40,697 nucleotides of DNA from Alphaproteobacteria bacterium HGW-Alphaproteobacteria-2 (GTDB taxonomy: Bacteria > Pseudomonadota > Alphaproteobacteria > Rhodobacterales > Rhodobacteraceae), in the NCBI GenBank assembly GCA_002842835.1, contig PHEG01000002.1, positions 1 to 40,697 of the forward strand, written 5' to 3'. A program made the translations under genes and the position numbers. Below the pieces are notes generated by a model that had not been told where the DNA came from, made no database searches, and saw only the letters and a list, made by a program, of their open reading frames with translations. Numbering within the stretch: position 1 is the stretch's first letter; every line of letters begins with the position of its first letter. Below are positions 2,993 to 19,619 of this stretch, one piece after another.

Positions 2993-5295
2993 CTTTTGAG
3001 CTCGATCAAGGTGAGGTCCAGCAGTTGTATGTTGTTGTTGTTCGGCGTCGCGGTGATGCTGACGCTGCGCGGGCCTGCCGCCATGAGCAGCGACCGCGAG
3101 TAGGTGCGGAACTGGCGCGTCGGGAAAAAGACAGTCTGGCTGCCCTCGCTTCCTCCAGCCGCTGATCCGGTGAAGTCATCCGTGGCGGTGATGATGGGCG
3201 TTCCATTGGCTGATATCGTCGTCGTGATGTCCCGCGCGGTGGCATCTATGGACCCGATGATGAGAATGCGTGAAGTCTGGTCGAGCGTGAAATTCAGCGT
3301 GAGCGGCTTGGTCGATGAGCTCGCCGACCGCAACGTCGTGATCGCATCGTCGGCCATGTTCCCGGTCTCGATGCCACCGCTGGCCACGTCCTGCGACACG
3401 ATTAGCAGGTCCAGCGTCGTCACCGGTGCCCAGGCCGTCCACTCCGCTTCGCGGTGAGGTACCAGCAACGTGCCGCGCAGCTCGTAGGCCGTGGCGGGCA
3501 GCAGTCCCTCGGCGATCACCAGCCGCCCCGAGGCCACGTCCTGCGTGCTGCCGGTCAGCGCCGGGAAGGCCGCGCCAGCCAGCCGCAGCTCCCAGCCGAT
3601 GCCGTCGGCGTCGGGCTCGTCGCCGTCCCATGTCACCTCGATGCCCGGACGGCGGGGCGCGCCGGTGGCATCCTCTATGGCGATGGCGGAGACAGCCAGG
3701 TCGTCCAGCGTGCGCGGGGGCAGGCCCACCCCCGCCGCCACCGGCGGTTCGGTCGGCTGCTCGTCGGCGGGGTCGTGGGCGAAGTCTGCCGCGTCCTTCT
3801 CCTGCAGCATCAGCGTGACGGTGCCCTCGCGCAGGCTGCGCTCGACCGCCGCCACCTCGAAGACCTTGGCCTGGTAGCCGAAGCGCTGGGACGTCCAGGC
3901 GACGGCGTCGAGAGGGTCGAGCAGCATCGCCTCGGGCGGGGCCGCGATGACGTGGCGGATGAAGCGCCGGTTGTCGTTGACCCAGAGCCGCTGCAGACGC
4001 TGCACCTGCGTGGGCGAGAAGACGGCGGGCAGGTCGAGCTCCGCCACGCGGCGCTGGCCCTCGTCGAGTGCCTCCAGGTCGGGGCGCAGCAGCACCGGCG
4101 CCGCGCGCGGCTCCCACACGCTCTCGGGCTCTCGATAGGTTGCAGCAAGGCCGTTCCAGACGTCGCCCGGGTCCGGGAAGGGCGTGTGACGGTCCTCCTC
4201 GGTCACGATCACGTCGTCGTCGGTGAAGAACCAGACCGGAAGCGCGGGCGGGCCGACCCGCACCAGCAGCCGCCCGCCGCTCTCGGCGTATTCGGCAGCC
4301 GCGGCCTTGCCGAGCTCGCCCAGCACGTCGCGCGGCTCGTCGTCGAGCCGCACCTCGAAACCTGCCTCGAACTGTGGCTCGAAGGTGGCGTCGGCGCGCT
4401 CCACCGGAAGATCGCAGGCGTTCATGGCGGCAAACCACTGCGGCAACGGCAGTTGCTCCGCCCGGTAGCGGCCGCCCCAGACGAAGCCCGGCACCGGCAG
4501 GCGGATGCCGCGCGCGACGTTGTAGGCCAGCACCATCGGGTTGCGGCTGGGTTCGTGGGTCGCGGGGTCGTCCCAGCGGTGCGTCCCGCTGCCGCCCACG
4601 CTGCTGTCCTTGCGCGGGTCGTAGACGGGGATGCCGACGACCTCGAAGCGCACCTCGGGGAAGCCGCTGAAGACCTTGCGCTCGAACTTGAAGGTCAGCA
4701 CGGCATAGGGCACCCCCGTGCCCACCATGTCGGCGGACCATGGAAATTCGGCCGCCTGCGCCTGCACGATGCCGAAGGGCCCGGTCACCGGCTCGGCCGG
4801 GTATTTGGCCAGCATCAGCGCGTCGGCCTCGGTCTGTGTGCCGTCGTGCCACCTGATCCAGGCCAGATCCTCGAACTTGCCAAGGAGCGGCAGGCCGAAC
4901 TCGGGATCGGCGAATATGCCGATCTCGGCATATTCGCCGTTGATGATCAGCCGCGAAATCTGGTGGCCCGGCAGATCACCCACGTCGAGGATGTAGTTGA
5001 GGAAGGTGTTGTTCTTCTTCCCGGCCTTGGAATGGGTCACCGCCGGGGCGGCGGCAGTGCCCGATGTAGCGTAAAGGCCAACGATGAAGCTCTGCGGGTT
5101 GACGCCACCCGTGAGCGTCTGCTCGGTGCGCAGCCCGGGCTTGGGCACCTTGGGCGGGGCGAACAGCACCGACTGCAAGGCTGAGACGGCCACCGTGACA
5201 AGCAGCTTGCCGAAGGTCGTGGCCAGGAAGGTGCCGACGGCCGAGGCCTTGAAGGCGGCGGCGGCGGCGGCGATGGCGGGGGCGGCGGCGGGCAT
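2989..5295 (-). CDS. Tail tip/hub protein (J-like, host-specificity)
   Basis: 768 residues, the central tail-tip protein expected to bind the cell surface and anchor the tail tube. The N-terminus has an alanine-rich hydrophobic start (MPAAAPAIAAAAAAFKAS) and a LATTFGKLLVTVAVSALQSVLF helix typical of J/GTA-hub-like proteins. A long beta-rich central region follows (about 90-500). A fibronectin-III-like domain spans about 540-640 (IEVTWDGDEPDADGIGWELR ... YELRGTLLVPH), and a beta-sandwich C-terminus runs from about 650. It follows the DUF6950 gene, as in many long-tailed phages. The serine/threonine-rich C-terminal 120 residues look less GC-extreme than the rest and may be the variable receptor-binding part. 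Confidence 0.8.
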   Translation of the reverse strand: MPAAAPAIAAAAAAFKASAVGTFLATTFGKLLVTVAVSALQSVLFAPPKVPKPGLRTEQTLTGGVNPQSFIVGLYATSGTAAAPAVTHSKAGKKNNTFLNYILDVGDLPGHQISRLIINGEYAEIGIFADPEFGLPLLGKFEDLAWIRWHDGTQTEADALMLAKYPAEPVTGPFGIVQAQAAEFPWSADMVGTGVPYAVLTFKFERKVFSGFPEVRFEVVGIPVYDPRKDSSVGGSGTHRWDDPATHEPSRNPMVLAYNVARGIRLPVPGFVWGGRYRAEQLPLPQWFAAMNACDLPVERADATFEPQFEAGFEVRLDDEPRDVLGELGKAAAAEYAESGGRLLVRVGPPALPVWFFTDDDVIVTEEDRHTPFPDPGDVWNGLAATYREPESVWEPRAAPVLLRPDLEALDEGQRRVAELDLPAVFSPTQVQRLQRLWVNDNRRFIRHVIAAPPEAMLLDPLDAVAWTSQRFGYQAKVFEVAAVERSLREGTVTLMLQEKDAADFAHDPADEQPTEPPVAAGVGLPPRTLDDLAVSAIAIEDATGAPRRPGIEVTWDGDEPDADGIGWELRLAGAAFPALTGSTQDVASGRLVIAEGLLPATAYELRGTLLVPHREAEWTAWAPVTTLDLLIVSQDVASGGIETGNMADDAITTLRSASSSTKPLTLNFTLDQTSRILIIGSIDATARDITTTISANGTPIITATDDFTGSAAGGSEGSQTVFFPTRQFRTYSRSLLMAAGPRSVSITATPNNNNIQLLDLTLIELKR

Positions 5296-6316: not shown

Positions 6317-6979
6317 TCACCTCAGGGTCTGGAGCCAGCGCAGCGCCAGCCCGTCTGTGACGGTGGCGCGCGCCCGGCCGGGCTGCACCGAGCCGGGCAC
6401 CACGATGGCCTTGCAGGCGGGCGATCGCAGCGCGACCGCGGCGCCCGGCACCGCGCCGGGCCGCAGGTGGGGCCGCACCTCGAAGAGCGCCGTCGCTCCC
6501 GCCCCGTCGGCCACGACGGGGCCGTTCGAGACCTCGTGCAGCGCGAAGCGGGCGGGGCTCGAAAGGTATTCGAAGGCCAGCAGATCGCCCGTCGAAAGGG
6601 CATATCCGGCGGGCAGCCCGGCCAGCCCGATCATCCGCGCGTCGCCCGCGTCGAGCGCGCCGATCACCGGCAGGGCGCCGCCCAGGATCAGCCCGCCCGG
6701 ATCGGCCAGCGGGAAGCGTCGCTTCGGGTCGGCGATCATGAAGCTGCCACCGTTGCGCACGAGGTTGACCAGCGCCTTCTGCGCGCGCAGCTCCTCGGCC
6801 AGGATGCGCCCGAAGATCATCTCGCCGGTCCAGAGGTCCGGCCCCACCCGCGCGCTCAGTATCTCGCCGCCGCCGGTGCCGCTGATCGCCACCTGTTCGG
6901 GAAGGTCGAAGACCGCGTCGGTCAGCAGCAGCCGGTCCTGGAAGGCGGCAAGCGGGAGGGGGAAGACGGCGGCACTCAT
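6317..6979 (-). CDS. Distal tail/tip protein, unassigned
   Basis: 220 residues, starting 4 bases inside the tape-measure gene (ATGA). The chain is mostly beta (LPEQVAISGTGGGEILSARV, GDLLAFEYLSSPARFALHEV) with no membrane segment. Being the first gene after the tape measure, it is positioned like the distal tail protein of long-tailed phages that caps the tube and starts the tip. That role is inferred from order only. Confidence 0.65.
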   Translation of the reverse strand: MSAAVFPLPLAAFQDRLLLTDAVFDLPEQVAISGTGGGEILSARVGPDLWTGEMIFGRILAEELRAQKALVNLVRNGGSFMIADPKRRFPLADPGGLILGGALPVIGALDAGDARMIGLAGLPAGYALSTGDLLAFEYLSSPARFALHEVSNGPVVADGAGATALFEVRPHLRPGAVPGAAVALRSPACKAIVVPGSVQPGRARATVTDGLALRWLQTLR

Positions 6980-9489
6980 CCCAGCACCCCGCCCACGCGG
7001 TCGATCTCGCGCTGCCGGATCGGCAGCACGCTGTCGGAAAAGCGGTCGATGCCCTCGCGCGTCACCCGCGCCGCCACCCGCTCGGAGGAGGCCTCGATCC
7101 GCGCGTCCAGGTCTCCCGAGAGCCGCAGATCGACCATCAGGCGCTCGGGCCCTCCGCCCGCGCCGCCGCCCCCGGCGCCGCCGCGTCCGCCGGGGGGCGC
7201 GAAGCCCGGGCCGCCCACCCGCCCGCCAGCCGCCAGCCGTGTCAGCCCGCGCCCGCTGTTGATCGCCTCCAGCAGCGGCAGGCTGCGCGCGGCCGAGGCG
7301 GCGTTGACCACGAACTCCCCGTCCGAGAGCAGCGCCGGGATGCGGTCGTCGCGCGGCCCGCCCGGGCCGCTGACCCGCCCGCCGCCCGCCGCCTTCACGG
7401 CGCCGCCCAAGATGTCTCCGATCAGCCCGCCGCCGTCGCCGAAGAAGCTGGCGAGCGGCCCCTGGCCCAGCAGCGCCCCCTGCGCCACGGTGCGCAACAG
7501 CGTCGAGAGCAGGTTCTTCAGCACGTCCTCGGCCTTCTCGCCGCGGAAGACGACGCCGTCGAGGAAGTCGAAGGCCGCCTGACCCACGCCCTCGAAGATC
7601 GCGCGCTGCGCCTCGAGGGTCTCGTCGAGGCGCAGGTTCGCGGCGATCTCCGCCTCGATCTCGCGCGTCTGCTCGGCCGTCGCCCCGGTCAGCTGCCCGC
7701 GCAGTCGGATCATCTCGCGCTGTATCGGGTCTGTCTCCAGCAGCAGGTCGCGCTCGTCTCTCAGCCGTGCGAAGACCCGCTCGATGGCCTCCGCCTGCCG
7801 CTCGGCCTCGCGCGTCTCGGCCGAGCGTCCGCCGCCCCCCTGGCGGGAGCGCTCGCTGTCGAAGGTCCGCGCCGCCTGGGCCGCGATCTGCCTGCCGATG
7901 TCGCTCTGCGGGTCCTGCACGTCGGCCGCGCGCAGCTGGCGGCGGACGAATGCGTCGCGGTCGGGCAGGCGCGCGATCTCCTCGCGCTCGCGCAAGCTGT
8001 CCAGGACATTGCCCTGGCGCTGCGCCAGCCGCTCCGCCTCCATCGCCTCCAGCTTGTTGCGGATGGCAATTGCCTCGCCATCGATGGCGGCGCCGTGCTC
8101 GTTACGCAGGCGGATCATCTCTCGCTGCACAGGGTCCGCCACGAACATCAGCTGCAGCTCCAGATCCAGCGAAGCTGACAGATCCCTGACCGCCTGTTCC
8201 TGCCGCCGCGCCTCGTTGGCCGCATCCTCGGCGGCGCGCATGGCGGCGGCCTGTGCCTCCGCTTCGTCGAAGCGCCTTTGCACGAGCGTCTCGAGCACGG
8301 CCGCCTCGGCGGTCCCCTCGGCCACTCCCGCCTTGCGCGTCGCCTCGAATTGCGCCTGCGCGACCTCGCCGCGCTGCAGGGCCGCGATCTCCTGCTCGAT
8401 CGAGCCGCGCACGGCCTCGAAGCGCTCGCGCGCCGCTTCGGCCGCAGCCTCCGCCGCATTGCGTGCGGCCTCGTCCTCGTTCTCGCGGGCTGCACCCAGC
8501 CTGCCCTCGACCGCGGCCAGATCGGCCTGCCGCGCGGCGATGCGGGCCTCGATCTCTCGCAGCCGAGCTTCAAGCCCCTCTGCCTGGCGCGCGGGAAACG
8601 GGTCGCCAGCGCCGCGCAGGGAAGCGGCCAGCGCACTCATGCGACGGCGGTCCGCCTCGAGATCGGCGATCTCGGACGATATCTCGAAGGCCGCAACGCG
8701 GTCCGGCGGAAAGAGGTCCTCGCGGATGCGCGCCACGCCGCGGGCCATCTGCTCCAGTACGGCGGGCAGCCGCACACTCTCGCTGATGACGCGCCCCATC
8801 TCCTCGCGCAGCAGCCGCAGCTCCTCGGTCAGGGTATCCCCTGCTCCCGCCAGCGTGCCGCGCGCAGCAGCCTCGCCTGCTCCTCCGACCTGGCGGCGCA
8901 CCTGCGCGAGGATAAGTGCCTGCGCCTCGGCCGCGCGGCCGGTGTCCTGCATCACGCGGATCATCTCGATCTGTGCTGCGGAAAAACTGACGCCCACCCG
9001 CCGCAGGGCTGCGAGGCCCTGTTCCGGGTCCTCCAGCGCCTTGGCGAGCTGCACTGCGGACGAGCTGAGCGTGCCGAAGCCGGTTGCTGCGAGATCCTGA
9101 GACAGGCTCAGCACCTCGTCGAACGTCTGTCCGGCGATGGAACGGAAGGTCAGCAGTTGCGCCGCCGCCGCTCGAACCTCGCCGGTGGAAGCAAGCGTCG
9201 CCAGGCCGACGCTGCGCGCCTGCCGCTCGATCTGCTCTATGGTGCGTCCCGCGGCACCGCCGGTGGCGCGGATCAGCTGCTCGGTCGTTCGGATCTGCCT
9301 CTCCACATCCGCGAAGGCGCGCAGCGCCAGTCCCGCAGCGGCCACCATGGCGGCGCCCATGGCCGCGCCAGCGCGCCCGGCCACTCTTGCCGCCCCCTCG
9401 ACGCGCCGCGTGCCCTCCGCCGTGGCGTCGAGTTCGCGCACTGCCTGGCGCGCATCCGCGGCAATCCGCATGGACACCGTGAAGCTCAT
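6976..9489 (-). CDS. Tail tape measure protein
   Basis: 837 residues; sets tail length and leaves the tube during infection. The N-terminal domain (MSFTVSMRIAADARQAVREL) is followed by a hydrophobic AGAAMGAAMVAAAGLALRAF helix and then long alanine/arginine/glutamate-rich coiled-coil stretches (about 270-650). A glycine-rich hydrophobic C-terminus contains DILGGAVKAAGGGRVSGPGG and LLSDGEFVVNAASA, the latter a motif common at tape-measure C-termini. An internal repeat is visible: DP(V/I)QREMIRLR occurs twice about 136 residues apart. The usual rule of about 1.5 angstroms per residue predicts a tail near 125 nm. A long tape measure with no sheath gene supports a siphovirus tail. Confidence 0.9.
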   Translation of the reverse strand: MSFTVSMRIAADARQAVRELDATAEGTRRVEGAARVAGRAGAAMGAAMVAAAGLALRAFADVERQIRTTEQLIRATGGAAGRTIEQIERQARSVGLATLASTGEVRAAAAQLLTFRSIAGQTFDEVLSLSQDLAATGFGTLSSSAVQLAKALEDPEQGLAALRRVGVSFSAAQIEMIRVMQDTGRAAEAQALILAQVRRQVGGAGEAAARGTLAGAGDTLTEELRLLREEMGRVISESVRLPAVLEQMARGVARIREDLFPPDRVAAFEISSEIADLEADRRRMSALAASLRGAGDPFPARQAEGLEARLREIEARIAARQADLAAVEGRLGAARENEDEAARNAAEAAAEAARERFEAVRGSIEQEIAALQRGEVAQAQFEATRKAGVAEGTAEAAVLETLVQRRFDEAEAQAAAMRAAEDAANEARRQEQAVRDLSASLDLELQLMFVADPVQREMIRLRNEHGAAIDGEAIAIRNKLEAMEAERLAQRQGNVLDSLREREEIARLPDRDAFVRRQLRAADVQDPQSDIGRQIAAQAARTFDSERSRQGGGGRSAETREAERQAEAIERVFARLRDERDLLLETDPIQREMIRLRGQLTGATAEQTREIEAEIAANLRLDETLEAQRAIFEGVGQAAFDFLDGVVFRGEKAEDVLKNLLSTLLRTVAQGALLGQGPLASFFGDGGGLIGDILGGAVKAAGGGRVSGPGGPRDDRIPALLSDGEFVVNAASAARSLPLLEAINSGRGLTRLAAGGRVGGPGFAPPGGRGGAGGGGAGGGPERLMVDLRLSGDLDARIEASSERVAARVTREGIDRFSDSVLPIRQREIDRVGGVLG

Positions 9490-9502: not shown

Positions 9503-9880
9503 TCACCCGGCCCGGCCGTTCATCGCGCGCACCGCCTCGGCTTCCATCACCTGCAGCCCCGCCCAGATCGCGGGCGTCACCCGGATCCCCGCGGCGGCGA
9601 GGCCGCAGCGCACGCCCGTGTAGTCGAGGCCGATCACAGCGATCCCACCCATGCCGCCCGCCACGACGCGCCACTGCGAGGCGACGGCCAGGAAGGCCAG
9701 CACGGCGGGCACGTTCTGGCGCCACACGCCCTCGTGCGGCTCCTCGCGCCGCGCGGCCAGCGCGTCCAGATCCCCGGGCGGCACGCCGAAGGCGCGCGCC
9801 TGCTCCAGGATATCCGGGCCGGGCGGCTCGGCCGTCTCCGCACCGCGGGCCCACTCCCGCGCCGCCCATCTCAGTTTCCC
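9503..9880 (-). CDS. gpT-like tail chaperone extension (DUF1799-like), made by -1 frameshift from the gpG-like gene
   Basis: About 124 codons in the -1 frame relative to the preceding chaperone gene, with no ATG at their start. The readable protein begins KLRWAAREWARG right after the slippery site and carries the DUF1799-like pattern VWRQNVPAVLAFLAVASQWR, then GLDYTGVRCGLAAAGI and LQVMEAEAVRAMNG. In lambda-type phages the second chaperone is produced only as a fusion (gpGT). Here the fusion would be about 232 residues. An internal GTG start (GVPPGD) is possible but lacks a clear ribosome site. It lies just before the tape measure, as expected. Confidence 0.8.
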   Translation of the reverse strand, partial: GKLRWAAREWARGAETAEPPGPDILEQARAFGVPPGDLDALAARREEPHEGVWRQNVPAVLAFLAVASQWRVVAGGMGGIAVIGLDYTGVRCGLAAAGIRVTPAIWAGLQVMEAEAVRAMNGRAG

Positions 9881-10221: not shown

Positions 10222-11154
10222 TCAGGTTAGGGTCAGGGTCCACTGGTCGTCGCCTGCGACGGGCAGCGGCACCAGGCGCAACGGCCACTCCTTGATGCCC
10301 TGCTGGTTTTCCAGGCCCTGCGGGCGCTGCACCTGCGCCGAGGGGACGTCGATCTGCGCGATCCGTCCCGCCTGCGTGCCGTGGCGCAGCGCCACCGCCA
10401 CGCGGGTCTGGTCGCGCGCGATCTGGAAGGGGTCCCACGTCGTCAGCGGCAGCGCCTCCACCCGGGTCTCCACCAGCTCGGCGCGCTCGGTGACGATCAC
10501 CTGCTCGGCACCCACCAGGAAGCGGCCCTCCACGGTGTTGCCCAGCGCGAGCGAGAAGGCGCGCATCACCAGCGCCTGCCCGCCGATGGTGAAGAGCGGC
10601 GTGCGCGCGCTCGTCACCGGATCGGGCGCCTGGAAGTTCGTGAGTGTCGGCACCGGCGGGGCCTGCTCGACGGGCAGGGTGAAGAGGCCGCGGAACTCGA
10701 AGCGCAGCTTCGGGTTGGTCTGCGCGTCGAGCGCCATGGTCACGGTGCCGCGCGCCCCGGAGAGGGCATAGAGCGTGGAGCCGATCCAGAGCTTCAGCGT
10801 CAGGCTCTCGTGGCCCTGCGTCACCGGGTTGTAGGTGACAGAGACCGCCGCGGCGACGGTCTGCGCGATGCCGCAGCCGCGCAGCAGCGGGCCCCAGGCT
10901 GGCGGCGCACCCGCGGTGCCCGATGGCGCCAGCTCCACCTCGAAGGTAAGCTGCGCGCTCAGCTCCACCGGCAGCGTGGCCTGCGCGCCCAGCGTGGCCA
11001 GCTCCAGCTCGCGGCTCAGGTCGGTGCCGTCCATCGGCGTGATGGCGATGTTCTGCGCCAGGATGGCGTTCGCCGCCGCGGTCAGCCCCGGGTCGGTGCC
11101 GTATATCGCCTCGACCCCGGCCAGCAGGACCCTCTCTTTGAAGCGGATGGTCAT
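10222..11154 (-). CDS. Major tail tube protein
   Basis: 310 residues beginning MTIRFKERVLLAGVEAIYGT, the common opening of siphovirus tube proteins that self-assemble into the hollow tail. The chain is beta-rich with repeated strands and includes PTLTNFQAPDPV, near a segment seen in tube proteins, then a second beta domain. It follows the tail terminator and a small gene by ATGA overlap and precedes the chaperones. At 310 residues it is larger than the minimal tube (about 150-250), so a second surface domain is likely. Confidence 0.8.
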   Translation of the reverse strand: MTIRFKERVLLAGVEAIYGTDPGLTAAANAILAQNIAITPMDGTDLSRELELATLGAQATLPVELSAQLTFEVELAPSGTAGAPPAWGPLLRGCGIAQTVAAAVSVTYNPVTQGHESLTLKLWIGSTLYALSGARGTVTMALDAQTNPKLRFEFRGLFTLPVEQAPPVPTLTNFQAPDPVTSARTPLFTIGGQALVMRAFSLALGNTVEGRFLVGAEQVIVTERAELVETRVEALPLTTWDPFQIARDQTRVAVALRHGTQAGRIAQIDVPSAQVQRPQGLENQQGIKEWPLRLVPLPVAGDDQWTLTLT

Positions 11155-12175: not shown

Positions 12176-12475
12176 TCAGGCCGCCCGCAGCGAGCGGCGT
12201 ATCTCGATGCCCGTCTCGACCGACTGCGTGCCGCGTCCGGGGATCGAGACGCGCACCTCCAGCCGCCCGCTGCCCGCGGGCAGGGTATCCGCGGGTACGC
12301 TCACAGTGACGGATGTCGCACCTATCCCGACGGGAAGGCTCACGGCCGCACCACCGCCGATGCGCGCCAGCCCCTCGGCGCTTGCCCCGGCGAGGTCGAT
12401 GGGCTGGCCGGTGGACTTCTCGACCACCGGCACCGAAAGATGCCAGTCGCTCAGCTCGTGAAAGGAAATATTCAT
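12176..12475 (-). CDS. Small beta-sandwich phage structural protein
   Basis: 99 residues from the ATG at 12475, chosen because GGAGG lies four bases upstream and the ATG overlaps the fibre gene's stop; a longer frame to 12490 has no signal. FHELSDWHLSVPVVEKSTGQ, LARIGGGAAVSLPVG and GSGRLEVRVSIPG suggest an all-beta immunoglobulin-like domain. It is coupled to the large fibre gene, so it may form the fibre's base or collar. Not named to a family. Confidence 0.65.
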   Translation of the reverse strand: MNISFHELSDWHLSVPVVEKSTGQPIDLAGASAEGLARIGGGAAVSLPVGIGATSVTVSVPADTLPAGSGRLEVRVSIPGRGTQSVETGIEIRRSLRAA

Positions 12476-14724
12476 GCGACCTCCTCCCATTCCAGCTTAA
12501 TTACGGGCTCGGTCCACGCCAGGCCGATCATCGGCACATGCCAGGCCAGCGGCACGACGGGATCGTCGCACCACCGGAGCGTTAGGATGGCGTTGATCCT
12601 GGCTGCGCCATCGAGGCCAGCCAGACCCGCCAGGGCCGCGATTGATCCGGGCGGGGACAACAGGTTCGCCGCCGCCGCCGCCGCCGCCGCCGCGATGGCG
12701 GCAAGATCGGCCCCGGGTGTGATCACCTCCGCCTGTGCCCAGGCCCGCGCCGCCGACTGCGCGGAGACGCTGACCCCTGGCGCGTCGATGCCCGCAGCAG
12801 TCCCGGCATGCGCGCCTGCCGATCCGTCGATGCGCCCCGCCGGGGCCAGAACCGTCGCCTGCACCGCGACTTCCGCCTGAGCCCCGCTGGCCGCGCGAAT
12901 AACCGGCACCGGGGCCAGGACATCCGCCGCCGATGCCGCCATCTGCGCCGCCGACTGCGCGGCGAAGGTGGCAGCCGGGGCCAGCACCGCGCCTGCCACT
13001 CCGGAAGCTGCCGCCGTGTCTGCGGCCAGCGCGGCAACCGGAGCCTCGATGCCAGACTGTGCGCCTGCCGCCGCGCCGGACTGCGCCGCAACCTGCCCTG
13101 CCACACTATCCAGCGCCGCCGCTGCCTGCACGCTCGCCCCGACCGAGGCTGCGATCCCGGACGCGGGCGCATGCACCGTGGCCGCCGCTGCCGCCGTCAT
13201 CGAGACCGCCACCGAGAAGCCGCCACGCGGTGCGGTGATGCCAACGGATGCACCGGCGGCGGCGGATGCCCCGGCAGCGACGGTGGCGGCGGGCGAGGTG
13301 ATCGCGACATCGGCGGCCACACCGGGCGCGGGCATCGCATACTGCACGTTCGCCGTGATCGCGTCGATCTGAACCGCGTTCCGCGCGGACCCGCTGCCGC
13401 CCACGCCAGCCGTCGCGACCTGCACGTCCACATCGACGAGACCATTCAGGATCGCGCCGTCGAAGGTGTATTGCAGGTCGGTGCCCGTGGTTGAGGTCAC
13501 CGTGGCTGACGCGCCGGAGATGGTGGCAACCTGCGTTCCGCCCTCCCACAGGGTCACGGCGGTGACGCTCGGGTTGCCGGAGTTGCTGCCCTTCCGCACA
13601 CGCAGGATCACCGTCTGCGTGCCGACCGGCTCCGCGTCCGGGACGGCGGTCAGCCGCCAGCGGGAAGTCCAGGAAACATTGACGTTGACATCGGTTGTCC
13701 ACACGCCGTCGGGCGGGCCGAGCGCGTTATTCGGGGTGGCGACCGTGCCGGTGACGTGGCTTGCCGCGTGGATCGTGGCCTGCGTGATGCCCGGCTCGAA
13801 CCATTCGTGCGCGCCGACATCCCAAGCCGGGCCCTGCGGTCGCGGCGTGCCGAATGCGTCTTCGGCGGGACCGATCCAGAACGGGTTGGCGCTGTTGTCC
13901 TGGCCCAGGTTGATCATCTGCGATCCGGGGGTCAGGCGCAAATCTTCCGAGCCAAGCACCGTGCTGACGAACGCGGCATTCGCAAGCGACATGGCCGCTG
14001 CGCCGTTCGTGCCGTCGGGAGAAAAGCAGTTGATCTTGACCCCGAAGGCGTCGAAGCCGACGCCGCCATCGGAAAAGCCGTAGCAGGAAATCGCGTTCAT
14101 CCCGGCAGCCGAGAATGCCGGATTTATCGTTGTCCTTCCAACGCAGTTTATGACGGTCGCTGTGCCCGCAGCGCGGGCAAAGGCGCGCGCCGGGCCGTCC
14201 ACGACGCCGATGCAGTTTACAGCCGCGCCGTCATTGTTGATCAGGAATCCGTGGGCACCGGAGTTGCCTGTCTGGAGGAACGCGGCGCAGTTCACCGCGC
14301 GGCGGGTGGCGTTATTGAGCTCGAAAGCCGTCCTGTCCGTGCCGGTGATCCACACCGCAAGGCCATTGAAGGTGATCGCCGCAGGCTGGTTCGTGAAGGG
14401 AAAGCCGAACCCGTTGTTGATCATCCGCAGATAGGTGCCCGTACCGCGCGACATCGCGTGACGGTTCTCGGGCGGCACGAATATCTCGACGGAGCGGGTC
14501 GCGTCCGTCACCCAGCCCGCGCCGAAATTGAGGATGCCCTGCCGCGCAGTCGCGGGCGTCGAGCGGTAGTTGACCGTCAACTTGCGGTCGAGCGCGACCA
14601 GATCACGCTGCGTCTCTGCGGCGAGCCATGCGTCCAGCGACGGGAAGGCGTCGGCCCATGACGTGCCATTCGCCGCTCCGCCGACTACATCGGTATCGAC
14701 GAAGCGGTTGGCGATCGTGGGCAT
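12472..14724 (-). CDS. Large beta-helix fibre protein with alanine-rich 21-residue repeats
   Basis: 750 residues in four parts. Residues 1-310 look like a right-handed beta-helix (LINNDGAAVNCIGVVDG, VINCVGRTTINP), closing in DVGAHEW as many such helices do. Residues 315-460 form a beta-sandwich-like domain (GVWTTDVNVNVSWTSRWRL). Residues 475-707 hold eleven tandem 21-23-residue repeats of the type [IVL]xxPxxx[IVFL]AA. Residues 722-748 are three 9-residue P[VM][VI]xLxWxx repeats. It is probably a virion fibre or spike recognising a surface glycan; a depolymerase role is possible but no catalytic site is recognised. It sits between head and tail-joining genes rather than after the tail hub, which suggests a head or neck fibre. 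The start has AGAGG upstream. Confidence 0.75.
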   Translation of the reverse strand: MPTIANRFVDTDVVGGAANGTSWADAFPSLDAWLAAETQRDLVALDRKLTVNYRSTPATARQGILNFGAGWVTDATRSVEIFVPPENRHAMSRGTGTYLRMINNGFGFPFTNQPAAITFNGLAVWITGTDRTAFELNNATRRAVNCAAFLQTGNSGAHGFLINNDGAAVNCIGVVDGPARAFARAAGTATVINCVGRTTINPAFSAAGMNAISCYGFSDGGVGFDAFGVKINCFSPDGTNGAAAMSLANAAFVSTVLGSEDLRLTPGSQMINLGQDNSANPFWIGPAEDAFGTPRPQGPAWDVGAHEWFEPGITQATIHAASHVTGTVATPNNALGPPDGVWTTDVNVNVSWTSRWRLTAVPDAEPVGTQTVILRVRKGSNSGNPSVTAVTLWEGGTQVATISGASATVTSTTGTDLQYTFDGAILNGLVDVDVQVATAGVGGSGSARNAVQIDAITANVQYAMPAPGVAADVAITSPAATVAAGASAAAGASVGITAPRGGFSVAVSMTAAAAATVHAPASGIAASVGASVQAAAALDSVAGQVAAQSGAAAGAQSGIEAPVAALAADTAAASGVAGAVLAPAATFAAQSAAQMAASAADVLAPVPVIRAASGAQAEVAVQATVLAPAGRIDGSAGAHAGTAAGIDAPGVSVSAQSAARAWAQAEVITPGADLAAIAAAAAAAAANLLSPPGSIAALAGLAGLDGAARINAILTLRWCDDPVVPLAWHVPMIGLAWTEPVIKLEWEEVA
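12601..13302 (-). repeat. Eleven tandem 63-bp-period coding repeats (fibre shaft)
   Basis: Encodes protein repeats beginning ITSP, ITAP, VHAP, LDSV, IEAP, VLAP, VLAP, VLAP, IDAP, VITP and LLSP, each 21 residues except two of 22 and 23. Position 4 is proline in ten, position 8 is always V, F, I or L, and the remainder is Ala/Ser/Gly/Gln. DNA identity between copies is modest, so the array is old or under protein-level selection. It includes a (GCC)n run near 12671-12693 encoding polyalanine. Confidence 0.8.
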
Positions 14725-18951: not shown

Positions 18952-19461
18952 TCAGGCGCCCGTGCCGCCGGGCGCCGCCGCGGCCCGGTCGAGCCATTCC
19001 TCGACGATAGCGATCAGCGCGGACTCGTCGTCGTCCGAGAGGCCGAGGAACGGCCGCGCCGGGATGTCGCCCCAGGGGATCGGCGCGCCGCGCGATGTCG
19101 CCCCGAAGGCGCCCCTCGCCGCGCCCTCCTGCATCACGCGCGCGTAGATCATCGCCGAGCCCCACTCGACGCTGCCCGCGTCCGCCTGCGCGAATATCCC
19201 GCGCGAGAGGCTGCCGGTGGGGCCGAAGAGGGGCCGCGGGTCCGCCGGGTCGCCGCGGCGGCGGTAGGCCTCCAGCGTGGTCGGGCTCTTCGGCGCCCAG
19301 GGCGTGCCGTCTGGCGCCGTGCCCGCCGGGAAGCGATCCTTGGTGGAGGCCACCAGGAACTCGCCCAGGTCCTGCATCACCGGCGTGAGATTGCCAAGCA
19401 GCGCCCCAAGGCGGACGAGGCTGGCCTGAAGTTCGGCGTCGTTGTAATCGATCCGAAGCAT
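18952..19461 (-). CDS. Virion morphogenesis protein (Mu gpG-like)
   Basis: 169 residues from the ATG at 19461 (MLRIDYNDAELQASLVRLG), preceded by GGGAGA; a longer open frame to 19623 is not needed. The conserved block STKDRFPAGTAPDGTPWAPK and the ending IPWGDIPARPFLGLSDDDES identify the phage virion morphogenesis family (Mu G, P2 S). It acts in tail-completion or head-tail assembly. It lies after the MuF-like gene as in Mu. Confidence 0.9.
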   Translation of the reverse strand: MLRIDYNDAELQASLVRLGALLGNLTPVMQDLGEFLVASTKDRFPAGTAPDGTPWAPKSPTTLEAYRRRGDPADPRPLFGPTGSLSRGIFAQADAGSVEWGSAMIYARVMQEGAARGAFGATSRGAPIPWGDIPARPFLGLSDDDESALIAIVEEWLDRAAAAPGGTGA

Positions 19462-19619
19462 GGTTATGTCTCTCCCGGTCCTGCCGCAAAATCTCCCGGC
19501 AGATGCTGAGGTGGCCTGACACCGAAGGTTGGCCAGGACATTTACTGGCCGGGGCTTCGGCCCTTGCGGCGGGGAGGGGAGTCCGCCGGGCAGGATCGCG
19601 GGGCCGCTCAGGCGCGGCC
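19462..19619. other. Noncoding spacer with two hairpins between MuF-like and gpG-like genes
   Basis: GGCCA (19531-19535) pairs with TGGCC (19546-19550), and GGGC-TTCG-GCCC (19552-19563) is a compact stem directly after it. No gene fits. On the minus strand no T-run follows the hairpins, so a terminator is uncertain. Confidence 0.45.

Follow-up and report, generated by a model that had tools for sequence, protein, structure and literature searches.

How is the second of two overlapping open reading frames (ORFs) translated when it has no ordinary start codon near its beginning? This question is raised by a pair of small tail ORFs (10200-9503) found on the minus strand of a Mu-like prophage within the window, i.e., the whole stretch of 40,697 nucleotides analysed here. 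Very probably, ribosomes reach it through a programmed -1 frameshift like that of lambda G/GT, with the slip signal at the end of the first of the two ORFs.

Two overlapping tail ORFs in a Mu-type prophage

The window encodes a Mu transposase (PF02914, E 2.7e-47) and Mu-type head proteins, namely gpT (E 1.1e-125), Portal_Mu (E 1.1e-98), Mu protein F, Mu I protein and Mu gp36, so that the phage can be assigned to the Mu type in replication and head. When compared with the lambda annotation, the tail genes follow the order V-G-T-H: the ORF pair sits between the Phage_tube_2 and TMP_2 genes (Table 1), a tail terminator gene likewise lies upstream, and the ORFs of the window between gp36 and the tube showed no sheath gene. 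Between gp36 and the head genes lies a gene (12472-14724, minus strand) whose 750-aa product has an alanine-rich and repetitive C-terminal half.

The first ORF closes, on the minus strand, with GTC GTG GAG GGA AAC TGA (9888-9871), in which the heptamer G GGA AAC lies in the exact register for a -1 slip, immediately followed by the stop. From this point the -1 frame is open for 123 residues plus a stop codon, the last residue codon ending at 9506, and its codon-position GC (0.80/0.58/0.94) is like that of the neighbouring genes. Its product matches DUF1799 in Pfam (PF08809; E 1.5e-11, 44.7 bits vs a cut-off of 26) and PHROG 680 (E 5.5e-20). The first, G-like ORF is matched by PHROG 569 (E 1.3e-12), the match covering only positions 25-129 of the 256-position profile; Pfam gave no match for this ORF, and no NCBIfam model was found for either protein. 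Both PHROG families are labelled "tail length tape measure protein"; the real tape measure gene is the next one. Between 60 nt before and 89 nt past the slip, the -1 frame contains no ATG, GTG or TTG, and the sole start-like codons in this stretch are CTG, one of which overlaps the stop as CTGA. An earlier note on this DNA, made from the sequence alone, had described a GGGAAAC in exact -1 register at the end of a gpG-like gene, followed by 124 codons (i.e., the 123 residues and the stop) of a DUF1799-like domain lacking its own start, and this description is borne out in each of its parts. The same holds for its view of the locus as a lambda G/GT arrangement carried by a Mu-type phage, to which gene order, register, missing start, the Mu head and transposase genes and the conservation of the heptamer all point.

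Table 1. Features of the probable frameshift locus and of its neighbours; positions are those of the window.
Feature	Position	Strand	Basis
Tail tube protein, upstream neighbour (lambda V position)	10222..11154	minus	PF18906 Phage_tube_2, E 1.8e-9
G-like tail assembly chaperone ORF, 109 aa	9871..10200	minus	ATG start; end GAG GGA AAC TGA
-1 slippery heptamer G GGA AAC	9874..9880	minus	Sequence; RRRAAAN in register in 75/75 DUF1799 loci
0-frame TGA stop directly 3' of slip	9871..9873	minus	Sequence; adjacent in 65/75 loci
T-like -1 extension, 123 aa + stop, DUF1799, without own start	9503..9874	minus	PF08809, PHROG 680, start scan
Candidate stimulatory hairpin GCG.CGCGGG / CCCGCG.UGC, 8 nt past slip	9840..9865	minus	Local fold
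Tape measure protein, downstream neighbour (lambda H position)	6976..9489	minus	PF06791 TMP_2, E 4.2e-8; PHROG 25241, E 1.1e-55

From a structural perspective, both parts were modelled by AlphaFold2 with high scores (pLDDT 90.7 for the G-like protein and 91.4 for the DUF1799 part). The G-like model ends in a helix (residues 88-107) running up to the slip, and the first helix of the DUF1799 model begins at residue 2 past it; judging from this model, a DUF1799 protein started at a later in-frame ATG, GTG or TTG would lose the first helix and more. In a fold comparison, the G-like model was placed closest to the tail assembly chaperone of HK97 (2OB9; Z 3.2, rmsd 5.5 over 81 residues), but unrelated chains scored equally well and the likeness is only suggestive. 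Foldseek returned nothing below E 0.6 from the PDB for either model, and the G-like profile had no match among the sequences of solved structures. In the corresponding search with the DUF1799 profile, ribosomal protein L20 was hit over a short C-terminal stretch (E 0.0015) and was judged to be a chance match.

Conservation of the slip signal among relatives

DUF1799 loci were sampled at three taxonomic levels of the host, i.e., its family (394 genomes), its class (385) and its phylum (398); hits obtained with protein queries were added and duplicates removed, giving 75 distinct loci. All 75 carry an in-register RRRAAAN at the end of the upstream ORF, which is AAAAAAC in 38 loci, GGGAAAC in 35, and AAAAAAT and AAAAAAG in one each; the exact form RRRAAAC is thus found in 73. 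The stop directly 3' of the heptamer, where present, is TGA (55), TAA (7) or TAG (3). By comparison, off-site RRRAAAN motifs in the same register within 300 nt number five in all 75 loci together. Since in nine genes from the tail region of the phage GGA is used for 8.7% of the glycines, and since 75 on-site motifs stand against these five, the heptamer is not a chance occurrence. The same scan recovered the GGGAAAG of lambda as a positive control. Column identity averages only about 31% for DUF1799 and 23% for the G-like part, so that conservation is much stronger at the DNA signal than in the proteins. The G-like protein is homologous to the upstream ORFs found in relatives, and an alignment of 37 rows shows its Asn109 to be invariant. 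The earlier note had named, as a finding that would speak against a frameshift, homologues without the heptamer that start the second protein on their own; none was encountered among the 75 loci.

One relative is an IMG/VR contig of 29.7 kb (L005, IMGVR_UViG_3300029890_000069), in which the G-like protein is 100% identical and the junction DNA is the same; a single-sequence scan of the genome contigs found no relative. The G-like profile matched about 100 genomes, most of the matches weaker than E 1e-12 spanning only columns ~50-101 and being left uncounted. Two loci found via the G-like protein and without a DUF1799 hit (L118 and L119) have AAAAAAC and a stop too, and the slip signal is carried as well by T1, Smarc2, Aval and VarioGold.

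Some relatives show peculiarities of their own. In four loci with distant G-like proteins (L121-L124; G183:C23, G150:C59, G239:C52 and G177:C27), AAAAAAC is in register, the 0-frame stop comes 90-120 nt later and the -1 frame holds a Cys-rich segment (such as YCRACGQPCDDCP) followed by a GG.LR...GWDF part recalling DUF1799. In T1 (L089, NC_005833), the annotated start of ST39 is an internal ATG (19339), and its frame (19180-19506) runs on from an AAAAAAC-TAA slip at 19180, the end of ST40. DUF1799-type extensions are annotated as separate genes with internal starts in the Acidovorax phage Aval (gp32, L091), where the record names the product 'FAD-dependent oxidoreductase', and in VarioGold (p13, L092); in both, an in-register slip lies directly before the stop of the preceding chaperone.

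Other origins of the second product and the downstream structure

The CTG overlapping the stop (AACTGA) could also serve for re-initiation after termination at the TGA, aided by the GGAGG located just upstream. In fact, RefSeq starts the homologues of RC1 (YP_007673208) and RS1 (YP_007676428) at such a CTG, and this is the first -1 codon in 54 of the 75 loci. However, a CTG arises automatically wherever ...AAAC is followed by TGA, and the GGAGG is not conserved among relatives. Moreover, 20 loci have a first -1 codon that is not start-like (CTA 11, CTC 6, CTT 1, GAA 1, CGG 1; one more has TTG) and keep the heptamer, and for this reason CTG re-initiation was rejected as very improbable. In L007, L019 and L022, which have CTC or CTT at this position, the 0-frame stop lies 36 nt away. 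A frameshift explains all these first-codon variants, whereas initiation at CTG does not.

A separate gene in the +1 frame, with the DUF1799 frame being non-coding, deserves still less credit. This frame is open for 127 codons from an ATG at 9869, one base past the stop (TGAGATG) and with the GGAGG upstream, to 9486, just before the tape measure gene, and a gene caller could pick it. Nevertheless, codon-position GC suits the -1 and not the +1 frame, the Pfam and PHROG matches fall in the -1 frame, and the median open length past the slip in the 75 loci is 24 codons for the +1 frame vs 122 for the -1 frame. The ATG, which is a by-product of the codons CTG AGA TGG, is shared by 11 loci, in which the open stretch of the +1 frame can be as short as 13 codons. 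As for a broken gene or a sequencing error, the fragmented source assembly (640 contigs) might suggest it, but the identical junction in the IMG/VR contig and the same signal, in different sequence, in 74 other loci refute this reading, whose probability is practically nil.

The earlier note also put forward a possible downstream stem. Over the family, the 60 nt past the slip form more stable folds than dinucleotide shuffles (mean z -1.36 +/- 0.18); elsewhere within 300 nt, z is mostly between +0.1 and -0.6, with one value of -0.81 at +80. Synonymous-codon shuffles give z -1.01 +/- 0.20 at +6 to +48, compared with 0 to -0.5 away from the slip, and a hairpin starting ~5-8 nt past the slip is possible in many relatives. 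The phage of the window has 72% GC, and its own 60 nt downstream are no better than composition-matched shuffles (z ~0); the fold of 9831-9868 (-18.5 kcal/mol, z -1.8) includes a modest local hairpin. A stem in the window is plausible at most, the signal for structure being a family-level trend together with this modest local hairpin.

Proposed mechanism and known counterparts

According to the proposed mechanism, most ribosomes would terminate at the TGA, yielding a 109-aa chaperone (G), and a minority, put at a few per cent from the lambda case, would slip back one base on G GGA AAC. This would be a tandem slip, in which the tRNA-Gly in the P site and the tRNA-Asn in the A site would re-pair from GGA AAC to GGG AAA; reading would then go on with CTG AGA TGG and produce a 232-aa G-T fusion. 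In tandem slippage, the junction residue is fixed by the tRNA that decodes the A site before the slip. This tRNA being tRNA-Asn, a junction ...VVEGN-LRWAAR is mainly expected, and the EGK-LRWAAR peptide predicted in the earlier note has to be corrected; with Lys at the junction, moreover, trypsin would cleave there. If the roles are those known from lambda, G may coat the tape measure protein and the few GT copies may recruit the tail tube subunit through their T (DUF1799) end. The statement of the earlier note that the heptamer joins two tail chaperones also needs rewording: since the second part lacks its own start, the product would be an extended form of one chaperone.

In E. coli, an A-site AAG shifts far more than AAC (A_AAA_AAG vs A_AAA_AAC; PMC5009743), so that efficiency may be low for an AAC site. 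A low rate has a precedent in lambda, where the ratio of G to GT is 30:1 (PMC5009743). The adjacent stop may contribute to the shift. A broader proposal, to be taken as tentative and at present rather doubtful, is that throughout the family the DUF1799 second protein is made only by frameshifting, on a signal consisting of an A-site AAC (not AAG) and an adjacent stop, which would aid slippage while in the A site and fix a low G:GT ratio.

The frameshift of the lambda tail assembly chaperone genes G/GT was reportedly described by Levin in 1993 and by Xu in 2004. The lambda system (for a review see PMC5009743) shares with the present locus the tube-G-T-tape measure order, a GGGAAA-containing -1 heptamer shortly before G ends and a T part reached via a -1 shift. 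It differs in its heptamer, GGGAAAG with a stop 15 nt later, whereas GGGAAAC is directly followed by the stop here, and in that Pfam recognizes DUF1799 in the second part and nothing in the first at the present locus. A GGGAAAC directly before the TGA of the first ORF was predicted in 2012 for gp18/gp19 of Burkholderia phage KL1, with a downstream stem-loop suggested as well (PMC3483164); KL1, however, is a siphovirus related to Pseudomonas phage PA73 and not described there as Mu-like, and the comparison made here is at the level of the slip site. The same two heptamers are known since 2012 from tape measure chaperones (gp93/gp94) of alphaproteobacterial phages, i.e., the Caulobacter phages phiCbK (AAAAAAC) and Colossus (GGGAAAC; PMC3556154), although these are large prolate siphophages and are compared here by their heptamers. 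In T1 (ST40/ST39) and Serratia phage Smarc2, siphophages for which no Mu features have been described, the gene preceding the tape measure gene ends in AAAAAAC, not GGGAAAC, with the stop right after it. ST39 was assigned from its position and its slip site only, and Smarc2, found by a DUF1799 query, has a record in which the product is joined under the name 'pre-tape measure frameshift protein'. Finally, a -1 shift before the tape measure gene has been proposed for the Mu-like Pseudomonas phages D3112/PaMx73 (PMC4378225), whose head and replication are likewise of Mu type and whose tail is long and flexible. In that case the proposed slip is T TTT TTC (5009-5015 in D3112, L093), 126 nt before the stop; neither GGGAAAC nor AAAAAAC was found there, and the chaperone signal of this Mu-like group seems to be another one.

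DUF1799 has been named as a domain-containing protein beside a tail assembly chaperone in a paper that does not mention a frameshift (PMC9658991). The arrangement itself is already known from KL1, the Caulobacter phages and Smarc2, and the family-wide statement is a modest addition. On this statement, DUF1799, a "domain of unknown function", would be the T half of a G-T tail chaperone across proteobacterial phages, which database entries misname or begin at an incorrect codon, such as CTG in RC1 and an internal ATG in T1. The near-invariant AAC together with the adjacent stop (65/75) would in turn offer a clue to how the chaperone ratio is set outside the lambda group.
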